Part shown: positions 5,135-10,883 of the stretch, piece by piece
Position numbering within the stretch: the first letter of the stretch is position 1
Layout: each line of letters opens with the position of its first letter
Virus record (IMG/VR): IMGVR_UViG_3300008952_000116
Coordinates: 1 to 40,102 of that record
Direction: 5' to 3' (one strand)
Source of the DNA: a virus
Length of the DNA: 40,102 bases
Notes under the pieces: model-generated
What the model was told of the DNA's origin: nothing
The model's database searches: none
The model's input: the letters and a program-made list of their open reading frames with translations, nothing else
Translations under genes and position numbers: made by a program

Positions 5135-6538
5135 ATGGCTCAACAATTATATTTTAGCCGCGACTCGGTGATGCACGTTGAAATCGGGTCGGCTGTGTGG
5201 AAGATTCCTGTACTTGAAGGATTCTCTTTCTCACAGGCTACAAACGTAACGGAGATTGGACTGAATGAGATGGAAAGCACTGCAGGAGTCAGTCGTCGAG
5301 GTAGACGAGCCTTTAATGACTCTCTTGCTGCGGCAGAATTTTCTTTCAGTACATATGTTAGACCTTTTATTTCAAAAGGTACTAGTGCTCCGGCAGCTAC
5401 AGGTGCTTTAGAAGCAGGCGGATCTGCTTTAAACCACCACGCAGTAGAAGAATGTCTCTGGGCGTTATTTGGAGGCCCAGCAGCATATGCTAGTAATACT
5501 TTTACCAATCAATTTGATACTAGTACCAGTAAAGCACACATTAATCTTAGAGAATCTAATGTATCAACATTAGGCCCAGACGCTGGAGCTAATATTTATT
5601 TCCAACTAGGTGACGCAAATAAGATTACTTATAAACTAACTGGTGTTGTACTAAATGAAGCAACCATTAACTTTGATATTGATGGTATTGCTCAAATTGA
5701 CTGGTCAGGTATGGCTTCAACAATTACTTCAGAGGGAGTATCTTTCCCAGCTGCAACAATTAATGAAGCACATTCAGCAACAACAAACTTTATTCGAAAC
5801 CGACTAACAACTCTAGCAATAGCAGTTGGTACAGTAACTACTCCAACAATAACAGCAGGCGGATCTAGCTACTCTAGTGCTCCTACTGTTACATTTAGTG
5901 CACCTGGTGGAGGCGGTACAACAGCCACAGGAACTGCAATAGTTTCTAGTGGAGCAGTAACTAAAGTAATCGTTACTGATGCAGGAGCAGGTTATCAATC
6001 TAGTGATACAATTACTTGTACTTTTAGTGGTGGAGGTGGATCAGGAGCAACAGCTACAACAGCTCTAAATACTACTATGAACCCAACAGGGGATACTTCA
6101 AACGAACTAGAAAAGACCTACAGTCTGACATTAACAGGTGGAAGTATTACCTTGACTAATAATGTAACGTATACAACTCCAGAAGAATTAGGAATTGTGA
6201 ACGTAGCGGTTGGTCACGTAACAGGCTCACGTACTGTTACTGGTAATTTTACCTGTTATCTAGCAGATGACACTACAACCACTAACGCTAGTAAGGACTT
6301 TTTCGATGATATGTCAGCATTAACGACTGTAACAGCGAATAAGTTTGATCTTACATTCGCTATTGGGGGCGGAGCAGGTACTCCTAGACTAGAAGTTCAC
6401 TGCCCACAAGCTCACGTAGATATTCCTACTCACGCAGTAGAGGATTTAATCTCTCTAGAGACTACTTTCAATGCGTTGCCTTCATCTCTTGATGTAGCCG
6501 ACGATGCAGATATGACTTATGTAGGAATAGCCTACTAA
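5135..6538 (+). CDS. Major tail (tube) protein with an inserted repeat domain
   Basis: This 467-residue protein has a good Shine-Dalgarno (AGGAG, 5124-5128) before ATG 5135. The core sequence (residues 1-230 and 312-467) has the beta-sandwich tube-protein features seen in siphoviruses: N-terminal SRDSVMHVEIGSAVWKIPVLEGFSFSQ and C-terminal ISLETTFNALPSSLDVADD. Its position before the G/GT chaperones is that of lambda V. Residues 235-311 look like an insertion: two Gly/Thr/Ala-rich units with YSSAPTVTFSAPGGGG and VIVTDAGAGY motifs, probably a surface decoration on the tube. The 14-codon frame at 5078-5122 upstream is probably not a gene. Confidence 0.8.
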   Translation: MAQQLYFSRDSVMHVEIGSAVWKIPVLEGFSFSQATNVTEIGLNEMESTAGVSRRGRRAFNDSLAAAEFSFSTYVRPFISKGTSAPAATGALEAGGSALNHHAVEECLWALFGGPAAYASNTFTNQFDTSTSKAHINLRESNVSTLGPDAGANIYFQLGDANKITYKLTGVVLNEATINFDIDGIAQIDWSGMASTITSEGVSFPAATINEAHSATTNFIRNRLTTLAIAVGTVTTPTITAGGSSYSSAPTVTFSAPGGGGTTATGTAIVSSGAVTKVIVTDAGAGYQSSDTITCTFSGGGGSGATATTALNTTMNPTGDTSNELEKTYSLTLTGGSITLTNNVTYTTPEELGIVNVAVGHVTGSRTVTGNFTCYLADDTTTTNASKDFFDDMSALTTVTANKFDLTFAIGGGAGTPRLEVHCPQAHVDIPTHAVEDLISLETTFNALPSSLDVADDADMTYVGIAY

Positions 6539-6547
6539 AAATAAATC

Positions 6548-6576
6548 TTGACATTTTTGTCAAAGTGAAATATAAT
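6548..6576 (+). promoter_or_regulatory. Consensus sigma-70 promoter with a -35 palindrome
   Basis: TTGACA (6548-6553) and TATAAT (6571-6576) are both perfect and separated by 17 bases. The -35 box is one arm of a perfect inverted repeat, TTGACATTTTTGTCAA (6548-6563), which could be an operator. Transcription would start near 6583, just before a terminator hairpin. It lies between the tail tube and tail chaperone genes. Confidence 0.8.
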
Positions 6577-6589
6577 GTATTAATAATCG

Positions 6590-6623
6590 AGTGAGGGGGG
6601 GTTAAGCCCCCTCGCTATTTTTT
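6590..6623 (+). terminator. Terminator directly downstream of the promoter
   Basis: A 10-bp stem pairs 6590-6599 with 6607-6616 (one T-G wobble, GC-rich, 7-base loop). It is followed by A and TTTTTT (6618-6623). It can end transcripts of the tail tube gene. It also lies within about 40 bases of the start expected from the 6548 promoter, so it may act as an attenuator for the genes downstream. Confidence 0.8.
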
Positions 6624-6646
6624 AACTGATAAAGGTAAATGTAGTA

Positions 6647-7084
6647 ATGACAGACACAGCGAGTAAAAAAGCACCAGTTTCACTATCGAGTCTAATGACT
6701 CCAAGCAAAACAGTTTCATTAGAGTTTCCTGGGTATATGGGATTAAATGTAGACTTATGTTATTTGGCTAGAGAAGAGTTATTAAAGCTAAGAAAAAAGT
6801 GTTTAACCACTAAATTTAATAGAAGTACTCATCAGCCAGAAGAAGAACTTGATGATGAAAAGTTTTTAGTAGAGTATTGTAAAGCAGTAATTAAAGGCTG
6901 GAAAGGTTTGAAATTTTCATACTTAGAAGAGTTTCTTTTGGTGGATGTTTCAGACTTTAAACCCGATGATAAGTTACCTTACACTCAAGAAAATGCCCAA
7001 TTACTTATGAGAAATTCTAATATATTTGATAATTGGGTAACTAATACTATAGGTGATTTAGAAAATTTTACGGGGAACAAGTAG
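6647..7084 (+). CDS. Tail assembly chaperone (lambda gpG-like)
   Basis: This 145-residue acidic, helical protein lies directly between the tail tube and tape measure genes, the fixed place of siphovirus tail chaperones. The chaperone coats the tape measure protein and recruits tube subunits; it is not in the finished tail. The middle (LAREELLKLRKKCLTTKF, then LVEYCKAVIKGWKG) is like the conserved core of this group. Its end overlaps a long -1 frame and carries a frameshift signal (7063-7108) just before the TAG at 7082-7084. AAAGG at 6631-6635 is the likely Shine-Dalgarno. A start-stop pair ATGTAG (6639-6644) lies between it and the true start. Confidence 0.8.
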   Translation: MTDTASKKAPVSLSSLMTPSKTVSLEFPGYMGLNVDLCYLAREELLKLRKKCLTTKFNRSTHQPEEELDDEKFLVEYCKAVIKGWKGLKFSYLEEFLLVDVSDFKPDDKLPYTQENAQLLMRNSNIFDNWVTNTIGDLENFTGNK

Positions 7085-7500
7085 AAAAAATTCAGGGTTT
7101 ACTTGTTCGATATGTTAAAGAGCAAGCTTCTCCAGTAGATGTAGATAAGTATTTAAAAATCTGTGAACAGCTTGGAGAGGAACCTGACCCACAAAAGATG
7201 CCGCTTACTCAGTCGGATTTTCCGGCTGAGGTTCAGTTGGCATTTTTTATGTTTGACTTATTGTCAGATGTATATGAGGGTATGTCAGGTACTTATATGG
7301 GCAAAGATTGGTCTCATTGTGACCAACTTTTCAAAATTTGGGAGATAGACGAACCTAAACTTACTATGTACTTTATGAAGCTCTATGAACGAACTGTAAT
7401 GAATGATAGAGCAGAAGAAGCAGAAAGAAAACGAAAAGCAGATGAACGTAAATCAAAAAGCGGTGACGGCAAGAATTACACCCATAATGTTAAAGGCTAA
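6647..7500 (+). CDS. Frameshift product: tail assembly chaperone GT-like fusion (-1 shift near 7069)
   Basis: A -1 slip on AAATTTT (7063-7069) joins the first 141 codons of the gpG-like gene to an open frame that runs without stops from 7057 to TAA 7498-7500. This gives about 284 residues. The T-like part begins YGEQVEKIQGLLVRYVKEQA and ends in a Lys/Glu-rich tail. It has no plausible start of its own: ATG 7198 has no Shine-Dalgarno and would drop conserved sequence upstream. This is the lambda G/GT arrangement, in which the minor fusion binds the tube subunits through T and the tape measure through G. The tape measure gene overlaps the stop by one base. Confidence 0.85.
7063..7108 (+). promoter_or_regulatory. 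Programmed -1 ribosomal frameshift signal
   Basis: The heptamer A_AAT_TTT (7063-7069) fits X_XXY_YYZ in the gpG frame. After a 5-base spacer, GAACAAGTA (7075-7083) pairs perfectly with TACTTGTTC (7100-7108), extendable by two pairs. The gpG stop codon is inside this stem-loop. All parts of a classic -1 signal are present at the right spacing. Confidence 0.85.
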
Positions 7501-10500
7501 TGGCTAAAACTGTAACTATACAAATTGAAATGAAGGGCAAGGGCGTTAAAAACGTTGCCGTTCAAAGTAAAAAAGCTTCTAAAGCCCTCAATCAAACTTC
7601 AAAAGCCGCAGGTACTGCTGACCGAAATATAAAAGGTGTAGCAAACGCTTCTTCTGGTGCATCTAAAAACTTCTCAAAAATGTCACAAGGCATGGCATCA
7701 GGAATCGTCCCTGCATATGCTACTTTAGCCGCTAATATTTTCGCCCTTTCCGCAGCATTTAGATTTTTTAAGGAACAAGCAGATTTATCTATTTTAAAAG
7801 AGTCTCAGGTTTCTTATGCTCAATCTTCTGGTACTGCTATTAAAAAGCTAACAGCTGATTTACAAGAAGCTAGTGGAGGCATGCTTACCTTCAAATCTTC
7901 AGCAGAAGCCGCAGCTATAGGCATGGCTAAAGGATTTACTCCTGAGCAAATGAACTCCTTAGCTATAGGGGCTAGAAAGGTATCTGCAGCTTTGGGAAGA
8001 GATTTTGAAGATGCTTTCGATCGTTTGGTTCGAGGTGTATCAAAAGCAGAACCGGAACTATTAGATGAATTAGGTATCACTTTAAGACTTGCAAATGCCA
8101 CTAAAAGATATGGAGATATGGTAGGAAAAACCGCAGATTCTCTAACAGAATATGAAAGAAGCCAAGCTGTTATGGTAGAAGTACAGCGTCAATTAAATGA
8201 TCAATTCGGAGACCAAGCACTACAAGCTAATCCTTATCAACAATTAATGGTTACATTAGATAACTTAATAAATAAAGTTACGCAAGCAGTATTACCTATA
8301 TTTAATGCTATAGTAGGGACTATAAATAGATCTGCGGGTGCAGCAGTAGCAGTATTTGGTTTAATAGGTTTAAGTATACTCAAATCAATGCCTTTTATTC
8401 AGAACTTTAATAAAGGTATAGATGATTGGGTAACAAAACAAAAAGAAGGATATGAAGACGCTAAAAAAGCACTTGATGATTATACTAAGAAAATAAAAGA
8501 GGCAGATAAGGGAGAGGCCTCCGCGTCCATTAAAGGAAAGGGTGTAGCTAAAGATATAATATCCAGAGGAGGTAAGGGAGCAAAATCTCCTGTTCTTAAA
8601 AGATTCTCTGAAGGTAAAATGAAGGGAGCAGACGAGCATAATTTAAAGAAAGCAATAACTGCTGCAGAAGTACAACTTGCAGCCCATGGAAAAGTTGTTT
8701 CAGGAATATTTGAGGGGGCAACCGCAGCAGAAGTTAAAGCTGTCCAAAAAGCTTTGAAGGTAAAAAATAGCTCTTGGAGGAAATTTTTTAGGCAGGTAGG
8801 AAGAGGATTTAAAAAGTCGGGACTACAAGCTAAAAAGTTTTATGCAGGTATAAAGAAGGGCGCTAAGAGTGTTCTTGGAGGAATAGGTAAAATTGCAGGT
8901 GGTGTAGGTAAGCTGGTCGGCAAAGCCATGGCATTTGCTGGTTGGATTGGAATGTTAAAAATGATCTGGGAAGCTTGGAAAACTTTACAAGCAAAATTAA
9001 ATGATGTAATTTCAGGGTTTTTAAGAGGTGTAGACGCTATAATGAATTCTGGTGTTGGTCAAATGATTAGACAAGTTATAGGAACTATTATTGAAGTGGT
9101 AGGTACTGGAGTTGACTGGATTTCTGAAAAATTAGGAGGAATGGTTAATTTTCTTTTAGGTATTTATCAAAAAATGTTAGAGTTTATGTCAATGATACCT
9201 GGAGCCATCGGAGATATGGCAGGGGCGGGGGCAGAAAAGTTAGAAGCATTTAGAGAAACCAGTGCTCTTCTTCAAGGTACTAATATCGCTGAATTTGGTA
9301 GAAATATGAAAGAGAATGCAGATGAGGTTTTGAATCTAGAAGCAGCTTTTCAAGCAAGTCCTATCGGGGAATGGACAATGAGTGTCCAAAATTCTGCGGG
9401 CGCAGCTTTAGAGGCAGAAGAAGCCTATGGTCGCTGGGCAGACATGATAAAGACAACATCTGAGGAAATGGGTACTTTACAAGATGCTATTAATGCGGCA
9501 GAAGGTGTTGAAAGAGGTGCGAAGGTAGCTAATGCTATGGCCTCCTTAAATCTTGGAAGCCTTTTAGAGTCAGCATTAGCACAAACTGAGAAGATGGGTG
9601 ATGTAGCATATAAAAATGATGCGCTAGAAATTTTAGGGAACTCTACAATTCCTCAGGTACAAGCAGCTTTTCAAGCATTTGAAGACTCTGGCAATATGCA
9701 GGCATTTATAGACAGATTAAAAGAACTCACTACTTTTGGAGGTATGGCAACTGCTGGAGAACAAGAATTTGTCAATCAAGTGGAATCCTTAGAAGAAGCT
9801 TTAAGAAACCCCGGAGATTGGGATGCGCTAGCTATACAATTAGGAAAAACAAGATCTGCTGCAGACTTGCTTGCTGCTGGTATGGAGGGCTTGGGTGAAG
9901 AGACCGACGTAAATACAAGAATAAATGAGGCAGCTGGTGGTAGTTTTAAAGACTTACAAGATAGAGTTCAGGGTTTTATTGCTATTCAACAACAATTAAA
10001 ACTTGACGAAATAGACAGGAATAAAAGACAAGAAGCATTTCATAGAGGAGGCACTTTAGTAGCAAAATTATTAAACGAGCGTTTAGAATTAGAGAAAAAG
10101 AATGCTGCAGTACAAGCCAAATTATTAGAAATAGAAAGTTTGCGGATGCAGATTAATGAGGGAAATCTTCAGCCCCAGGCTTTGGCGGCTGCTCGAAGAC
10201 AATTAGAGATAAATATAGCAGAACTTGATCAACTAAGAGCAGCTAAAGAGGGGTATGAAAAGGACATAGAAGATTCTTCTAAACTAGGGCTACAAGCTAT
10301 AAATAGTTTAGGTTCAGGTATAGCCGCAGCTTTTGATGGTCTAGTTATGGGCACTAAAACTGTAAAAGAAGCTTTTAGAGACATGGCAATGGGAGTAATA
10401 CAATCTCTTTCTAAGATGTTAGCAGAAATGATGGCTGCTAAAATAATGATGTCAGTAATGGGATTCGCAACTCCTAGTGCTCCTAGTACTTCACAAATGC

Positions 10501-10883
10501 CAGGTGCTAATGCGGGTTCTGCTGATTGGGGAGCTTTTTATGGTGTTCCAGGAGGTAAGAAAGGAGGAGTTTTTAATCCTCCCGAGTATGCAAGAGGAGG
10601 AATTGCTAAAACTCTTAATAAGATGGACGGTTCCGGAGGATACCCCGCGATACTTCATGGAACTGAGGCAGTTGTTCCATTACCTAATGGAAGATCTATA
10701 CCTGTAGATATGAAAGGAGCAGGTAATAATATAGTAGTTAATATTTCTGGCGAAGGCGGTGCTATGCAAACTGAGGGCGGAGATCAAGAAGGTTTAGGAA
10801 GAGCTATTGCAATGGCAGTACAAAAAGAATTGCAGAATCAGAAACGATCGGGCGGAATACTTAATCCGTATGGGGCAGCATAA
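7500..10883 (+). CDS. Tail tape measure protein
   Basis: This 1127-residue protein begins at ATG 7500, overlapping the GT stop. It is long, Ala/Gly/Lys-rich and mostly helical. The conserved tape measure region is at about residues 60-250 (ASGIVPAYATLAANIFALSA, and DFEDAFDRLVRGVSKAEPEL). Hydrophobic segments lie near residues 278-296 and 457-489, as in proteins thought to form a channel in the host membrane on ejection. The C-terminal part has FDGLVMGTKTVKEAFRDMAM, then near residues 1046-1070 HGTEAVVPLPNGRSIPV, both typical of the C-terminus of this family. At about 1.5 angstrom per residue, the tail would be near 170 nm; this is an estimate. It is the longest gene of the pre-tip block and is followed by gpM. 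Confidence 0.93.
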   Translation: MAKTVTIQIEMKGKGVKNVAVQSKKASKALNQTSKAAGTADRNIKGVANASSGASKNFSKMSQGMASGIVPAYATLAANIFALSAAFRFFKEQADLSILKESQVSYAQSSGTAIKKLTADLQEASGGMLTFKSSAEAAAIGMAKGFTPEQMNSLAIGARKVSAALGRDFEDAFDRLVRGVSKAEPELLDELGITLRLANATKRYGDMVGKTADSLTEYERSQAVMVEVQRQLNDQFGDQALQANPYQQLMVTLDNLINKVTQAVLPIFNAIVGTINRSAGAAVAVFGLIGLSILKSMPFIQNFNKGIDDWVTKQKEGYEDAKKALDDYTKKIKEADKGEASASIKGKGVAKDIISRGGKGAKSPVLKRFSEGKMKGADEHNLKKAITAAEVQLAAHGKVVSGIFEGATAAEVKAVQKALKVKNSSWRKFFRQVGRGFKKSGLQAKKFYAGIKKGAKSVLGGIGKIAGGVGKLVGKAMAFAGWIGMLKMIWEAWKTLQAKLNDVISGFLRGVDAIMNSGVGQMIRQVIGTIIEVVGTGVDWISEKLGGMVNFLLGIYQKMLEFMSMIPGAIGDMAGAGAEKLEAFRETSALLQGTNIAEFGRNMKENADEVLNLEAAFQASPIGEWTMSVQNSAGAALEAEEAYGRWADMIKTTSEEMGTLQDAINAAEGVERGAKVANAMASLNLGSLLESALAQTEKMGDVAYKNDALEILGNSTIPQVQAAFQAFEDSGNMQAFIDRLKELTTFGGMATAGEQEFVNQVESLEEALRNPGDWDALAIQLGKTRSAADLLAAGMEGLGEETDVNTRINEAAGGSFKDLQDRVQGFIAIQQQLKLDEIDRNKRQEAFHRGGTLVAKLLNERLELEKKNAAVQAKLLEIESLRMQINEGNLQPQALAAARRQLEINIAELDQLRAAKEGYEKDIEDSSKLGLQAINSLGSGIAAAFDGLVMGTKTVKEAFRDMAMGVIQSLSKMLAEMMAAKIMMSVMGFATPSAPSTSQMPGANAGSADWGAFYGVPGGKKGGVFNPPEYARGGIAKTLNKMDGSGGYPAILHGTEAVVPLPNGRSIPVDMKGAGNNIVVNISGEGGAMQTEGGDQEGLGRAIAMAVQKELQNQKRSGGILNPYGAA

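Follow-up and report, generated by a model that had tools for sequence, protein, structure and literature searches.

The closest described counterparts of the locus analysed here are the lambda-type tail assembly chaperones, namely lambda G/GT, which shifts at G_GGA_AAG, and the Xu-Hendrix-Duda set. Such loci have two overlapping frames between the major tail protein and tape measure genes, a second frame at -1 that lacks a start codon of its own near the overlap, and an in-frame X_XXY_YYZ heptamer within it; their G protein has the fold of a tail assembly chaperone, and the fusion, produced at a few percent, is required for building the tail. In Escherichia coli dnaX, the -1 signal has three parts, a Shine-Dalgarno (SD)-like element, A_AAA_AAG and a hairpin, while UUU_CGN is a +1 site shown for influenza A PA-X and reported for amalgaviruses (PMC3498833, PMC5052127). 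The phages T5 and Sugarland have been said to lack a predicted frameshift signal (PMC6256483).

The window studied here is a 40,102-base virus record (IMG/VR IMGVR_UViG_3300008952_000116, positions 1 to 40,102), whose chaperone locus very probably contains a lambda G/GT-like site of programmed -1 ribosomal frameshifting at the heptamer A_AAT_TTT. In the literature searched, no A_AAU_UUU heptamer was found as a tested bacterial frameshift site, the AAATTTT paper found being a Wolbachia sequence prediction (PMC10299305). The focal site itself is of a known kind, and the interesting part is the putative switch of shift direction that separates it from its T5-like relatives.

Gene order and the two chaperone frames

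The genes of the window follow the order capsid/protease (460), major tail protein, G, T, tape measure and minor tail proteins, with two overlapping frames between the major tail protein and tape measure genes, as in lambda-type loci (Table 1). G starts with ATG at 6647 and its 3' end reads GAA AAT TTT ACG GGG AAC AAG TAG. The second frame, at -1, is open from 7057 to its stop at 7498-7500, and the tape measure gene begins on the last base of this stop. Both frames are open across the heptamer, G to 7084 and T from 7057 to 7500, as the original prediction from the sequence had stated; the position at which it made the signal begin, 7057, is where the T frame opens, the heptamer itself occupying 7063-7069.

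Capsid, chaperone and tape measure proteins showed roughly 25-47% identity to those of T5-like Demerecviridae. No chaperone family was found above the cut-off for G in Pfam, and Rfam, searched over 6400-7600, gave only sub-threshold matches. The AlphaFold model of G (pLDDT 82) had modest best PDB matches, to YqbN (Z 5.5) and the HK97 tail assembly chaperone 2ob9 (Z 4.8). Among predicted viral structures, its best four matches were Demerecviridae-type phage proteins, three of them named tape measure chaperone; matches beyond the first few ranks were weak and were not used.

Table 1. Features of the chaperone locus and flanking genes (positions in the window)
Feature	Position	Strand	Basis
Major tail protein gene, upstream of G	5135..6538	+	PHROG 3575, E 1.7e-39
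G frame, tail assembly chaperone, 0-frame product, 145 aa	6647..7084	+	PHROG 313, E 2.8e-11
SD-like AGGTGAT upstream of heptamer, candidate stimulator	7051..7057	+	sequence; conservation inconsistent
Last upstream T-frame stop TGA, bounding the possible shift region	7054..7056	+	sequence reading
Slippery heptamer A_AAT_TTT, P-site Asn, A-site Phe	7063..7069	+	sequence; conserved in relatives
Spacer (5 nt before the stem of the window, 8 nt before the conserved core)	7070..7074	+	
T frame (-1), C-terminal chaperone domain, 143 aa	7069..7500	+	PHROG 3914 (tail assembly chaperone), E 8.4e-17
Hairpin 5' arm	7075..7085 (conserved core 7078-7085)	+	RNAfold, recoding, covariation
0-frame stop TAG, within the extended 5' arm	7082..7084	+	sequence reading, RNAfold
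Hairpin 3' arm	7098..7108 (conserved core 7098-7105)	+	RNAfold, recoding, covariation
Tape measure protein gene, downstream	7500..10883	+	PHROG 3779, E 1.8e-50

Two further features of the module were observed. A single 674-aa ORF at 460-2484 has matches to head maturation protease families at its N-terminal end and also to major head protein families; protease and capsid thus seem to be fused, whereas T5-like phages have two genes. In addition, the stretch that separates the major tail gene from G contains a promoter matching the sigma-70 consensus perfectly (TTGACA-17-TATAAT, 6548-6576); after it, still ahead of G, comes a strong hairpin with a T run (6590-6616). The promoter was found with at most one mismatch in 71 of 183 relatives and a terminator-like hairpin in 137 of 183. 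This hairpin precedes the promoter in L001, L002, L004, L005, L007 and L010, and follows it in the window, L093, L095, L011 and L120, where it could attenuate.

Close to the overlap, the second frame lacks a start codon: the first in the window is the ATG at 7198 (+135), and in 59 close relatives none occurs before +36, the first common ones being at +132/+135. An independent T gene with an internal start, for example at ATG 7198 (100 aa), would make overlap and heptamer incidental; a start at +132 or +135 is indeed present in most close relatives, and many T5-like records annotate a downstream start for the second ORF. This reading appears improbable, given that the region between the shift site and ATG 7198 is conserved as protein and that the T profiles of the -1 group and of the +1 group of T5-like phages align from residue 7 on (probability 99.8, E 4.6e-29). 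Homology thus begins just past the shift site, and both frames are apparently coding from there. An internal start would also leave unexplained the codon-level invariance of the heptamer and the hairpin downstream of it.

Conservation of the slippery heptamer

The window's genes contain 78 in-frame X_XXY_YYZ heptamers in 12,856 codons, and only the one at the end of G gives access to a long -1 frame (145 codons; the next best, 30). The motif GAAAATTTTA is carried by 95 of 95 distinct close relatives (viral contigs), which were placed by this same motif, and it is also present in every locus anchored on the T protein. A wider sample, which includes phage records and whose loci were located by protein matches, independently of the motif, yielded 203 distinct -1 loci. 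All 203 hold a canonical in-frame X_XXY_YYZ within the overlap, as lambda-type loci do (AAATTTT in 162, GGGAAAC in 37, GGGAAAG in four), these relatives being kin, so that the counts are not independent samples and overstate independence. The original prediction had pointed to relatives that keep the overlap while losing both heptamer and stem as the case that would speak against it, and none of the 203 has lost the heptamer. Its remark that the heptamer differs from lambda's GGGAAAG holds for the window, while some relatives have GGGAAAG or GGGAAAC one codon upstream.

Among the AAATTTT loci, 61 have a T frame that opens at the heptamer itself and 80 one that opens six bases before it (141/162 together), which leaves little room for a shift elsewhere. 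Codon usage at the site is invariant, with Asn encoded by AAT and Phe by TTT in 162 of 162 loci, as against 66% AAT (481:242) and 82% TTT (814:182) elsewhere in the same genes. In loci of the GGGAAAY class, whose heptamer lies one codon upstream, Gly at the site is always GGA, a codon that makes up 61 of 239 Gly codons elsewhere, while the next codon, for Phe, may be TTT or TTC; as expected, this pattern fits constraint on the heptamer and not on the protein.

The GGGAAAC and GGGAAAG heptamers were observed in a related lineage (L199-L223, L303-L378), within which a sub-group (L201, L202 and L206) has AAATTTT, with a long hairpin in L201 and L202. L201 falls within the GGGAAAC rows, which suggests that one heptamer has given way to another on more than one occasion.

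A hairpin maintained downstream of the heptamer

Positions 7075-7083 (GAACAAGTA) are the exact reverse complement of 7100-7108 (TACTTGTTC), and reading the sequence bore out the predicted combination of AAATTTT, a 5-base spacer and a perfect 9-bp stem within the overlap. The stop does overlap the 5' arm, as had been proposed; the stem, however, is not limited to nine pairs, since RNAfold extends it to 11 (7075-7085/7098-7108; -11.2 kcal/mol, z -3.57, 0/200 shuffles as good), with the G of the stop (7084) pairing with U7099. The conserved core is confined to 7078-7085/7098-7105, and the outermost three pairs (GAA/TTC) are retained in a minority of relatives only.

Folding of the 50 bases from +9 gave a mean z of -3.05 over the 162 AAATTTT loci, with 81% of loci below -2, compared with 1-11% at six control offsets in the same genes. 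The GGGAAAC group was intermediate (mean z -1.70, 43% below -2), and a significant hairpin was found in none of the four GGGAAAG loci (0.21). Because the hairpin arms are coding in frame T, synonymous recoding of this frame was used as a null in 99 reduced-redundancy loci: the observed mean was -11.46 kcal/mol versus -4.50 for recoded sequences (mean z -2.99), with 83% below z -2 and controls at 4-16%. When the first 15 bases were kept fixed and the rest of frame T was recoded, the mean z was -2.77.

Covariation among relatives, proposed earlier as a check on the stem, was detected: in 90 aligned sequences the named helix scored 0.169 versus 0.099 when shuffled (0/500), and structures slid along the same sequences scored 0.025-0.122. 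Several pair types, A-U, C-G, U-A and G-C among them, occur at the inner pairs 7085-7098 and 7086-7097. RNAalifold returned no consensus structure for the mixed 90-sequence alignment (A2), perhaps due to minority rows with the 3' arm elsewhere; in 126 of 162 loci the arms pair best in one and the same geometry, and the 3' arm is nine bases closer in 16. As far as sequence comparison can tell, the hairpin is selected beyond the coding constraint.

The hairpin might also sequester the stop so that structure slows termination, as the original prediction had suggested, and this could be its functional point; stop and 5' arm do overlap in the majority of AAATTTT relatives. This explanation is not supported, and seems slightly less probable even than an internal start for T. 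L040 and L067 do not have this stop, their 0-frame ending at +28, and both still fold (z -2.3 and -3.7, respectively, L067 through a different helix). Moreover, a codon must be unpaired in the A site to be read, so a paired stop would already be melted when it is decoded. The overlap of stop and arm is read as geometry, heptamer, hairpin and stop all lying within about 20 bases.

An upstream stimulator was also considered. The SD-like AGGTGAT was dropped as a conserved element, being lost in part of the family: GGTGA is absent in L096-L103, L105, L109-L112, L114 and others, and the locus accordingly does not have the conserved upstream part of a dnaX-type three-part signal.

A putative -1 frameshift producing a G-T fusion

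Slippage of RNA polymerase on AAAATTTT might produce the same fusion, and an AT-rich run does adjoin the junction. This is very unlikely: the runs are of only 4 A and 4 T, whereas slippage-prone runs have n > 7 (A) or n > 8 (T) (PMC3711429), relatives use GGGAAAC or GGGAAAG instead, and the downstream hairpin and the codon phase fit ribosomal slippage. That an indel or a sequencing error split one gene, for which the split itself speaks and nothing more, is refuted by the same -1 split in 203 distinct relatives from many samples, and can be practically discounted.

A programmed -1 ribosomal frameshift is thus strongly favoured, because gene order and chaperone families on both frames, the conserved heptamer, codon bias and the hairpin all point to it; conservation, frame geometry, the lack of a nearby T-frame start and hairpin covariation likewise uphold this reading as first proposed. 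Most ribosomes would read G to the TAG at 7082-7084 and produce the 145-aa chaperone. A minority would be paused by the downstream hairpin while AAT occupies the P site and TTT the A site, whereupon both tRNAs would re-pair one base back (AAA, TTT) and translation would read on as TAC GGG GAA CAA... The product would be a 284-aa G-T fusion comprising 141 aa of G and 143 aa of T, the T-frame part starting YGEQVEK (junction ...DLENF/YGEQVEK), and the predicted junction peptide is NSNIFDNWVTNTIGDLENFYGEQVEK, set against NSNIFDNWVTNTIGDLENFTGNK. By analogy with lambda, G would bind the tape measure protein and the fusion would recruit the major tail protein. From these features we infer that slippage occurs, its efficiency, and a role of the fusion in tail assembly. 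Such a site would add an abundant marine lineage to the lambda-type chaperone frameshifts, and provides a case in which selection on a hairpin is measurable against coding constraint.

A second frame at +1 in T5-like relatives

Homologous G and T proteins in a syntenic module were found in T5-like phages, in which the second frame lies at +1 and the homologous Phe codon is the TTT of TTT_CG(T/A) in every one of the 42 usable loci, a set made up of 33 distinct loci, eight further ones and Shivani, with many near copies. Other Phe codons in the T5-like genes are TTT in 102 cases and TTC in 97. The lineages represented include Tequintavirus, Epseptimavirus, Hongcheonvirus, Sugarlandvirus, Novosibvirus, Thalassavirus, Jesfedecavirus, Pogseptimavirus and Serratia phage Kamaji. 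Aeromonas phage AhSzq-1 (L386) was excluded from the 42, its chaperone frame being interrupted early; this is a partial record with no genes annotated at the chaperone, and the interruption may reflect sequence error or decay.

No hairpin was found directly after TTT_CG(T/A) in the T5-like loci (mean z -0.55). As a separate observation, the +1 group, unlike the -1 groups, shows a strong fold in the 50 bases at offset +110 downstream of TTTCG (mean z -2.96, 70% below -2).

Most T5-like records (L082-L092, L158-L159, L173-L198, L379-L385, L387-L389 and L392) annotate two separate genes or a second ORF that starts downstream. In Shivani (GenBank KP143763) the two frames are annotated as one joined gene; its length implies -2, a point that the accompanying paper does not discuss. 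Slippage by -2 is judged unlikely in T5-like phages because the codon before TTT varies (ACT, AAC, ACC, TCA, TCC, GGG) and offers no consistent -2 re-pairing, whereas re-pairing from UUU to UUC is available in all.

Apparently, therefore, the window's lineage shifts by -1 at A_AAU_UUU or G_GGA_AAY, usually with a selected hairpin, and the T5-like phages by +1 at UUU_CGN without a direct hairpin. On a tree of 55 G proteins, the direction has to change once (branch support 100/98) and the type of site four times; the tree has some long branches (L091 above all) and is unrooted, so that either direction could be ancestral. We lean towards the view that, as this tree suggests, shift direction switched once at the same Phe codon between the window's -1 lineage and the T5-like +1 lineage, and that UUU_CGN works in bacteria. 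No report of UUU_CGN as a phage frameshift site was found in the literature searched, and an earlier description in T5 is possible.

If this view is correct, UUU_CGN, so far a +1 site of eukaryotic viruses, would work in bacteria, and would do so in a classic phage reported to be signal-less. Homologous chaperones would have kept their two frames through changes in the heptamer, in the codon position it occupies, in the hairpin and, apparently, in the direction of the shift, which would make signal replacement without loss of the product testable in T5 and E. coli.

Comparison with known frameshift systems

With lambda G/GT and the Xu-Hendrix-Duda set, the window shares gene position, direction, a heptamer near the end of G and a short overlap, and among its own relatives G_GGA_AAG and G_GGA_AAC occur in almost the same position. 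It differs from lambda in its A_AAT_TTT and covarying hairpin. The fold link of the window goes, with modest Z, to HK97/YqbN chaperones. A heptamer and a downstream hairpin are shared with E. coli dnaX, as is an SD-like sequence upstream in the window itself, although part of the window's family has lost this element.

The slip codon UUU_C followed by CGN, as in PA-X and the amalgaviruses, occurs in the T5-like relatives and not in the window, and those sites belong to eukaryotic viruses. Human genes seldom use CGU, whereas E. coli uses it often (table in PMC3498833), so a slow A-site codon may not explain a +1 shift in bacteria.

The T5-like Demerecviridae have an orthologous head-tail module, with capsid, both chaperones and tape measure protein homologous to those of the window and the predicted shift at the homologous Phe. 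They differ from the window, with its -1 frame, A_AAT_TTT and adjoining hairpin, in having a +1 second frame, TTT_CG(T/A) at the site and no hairpin directly downstream.
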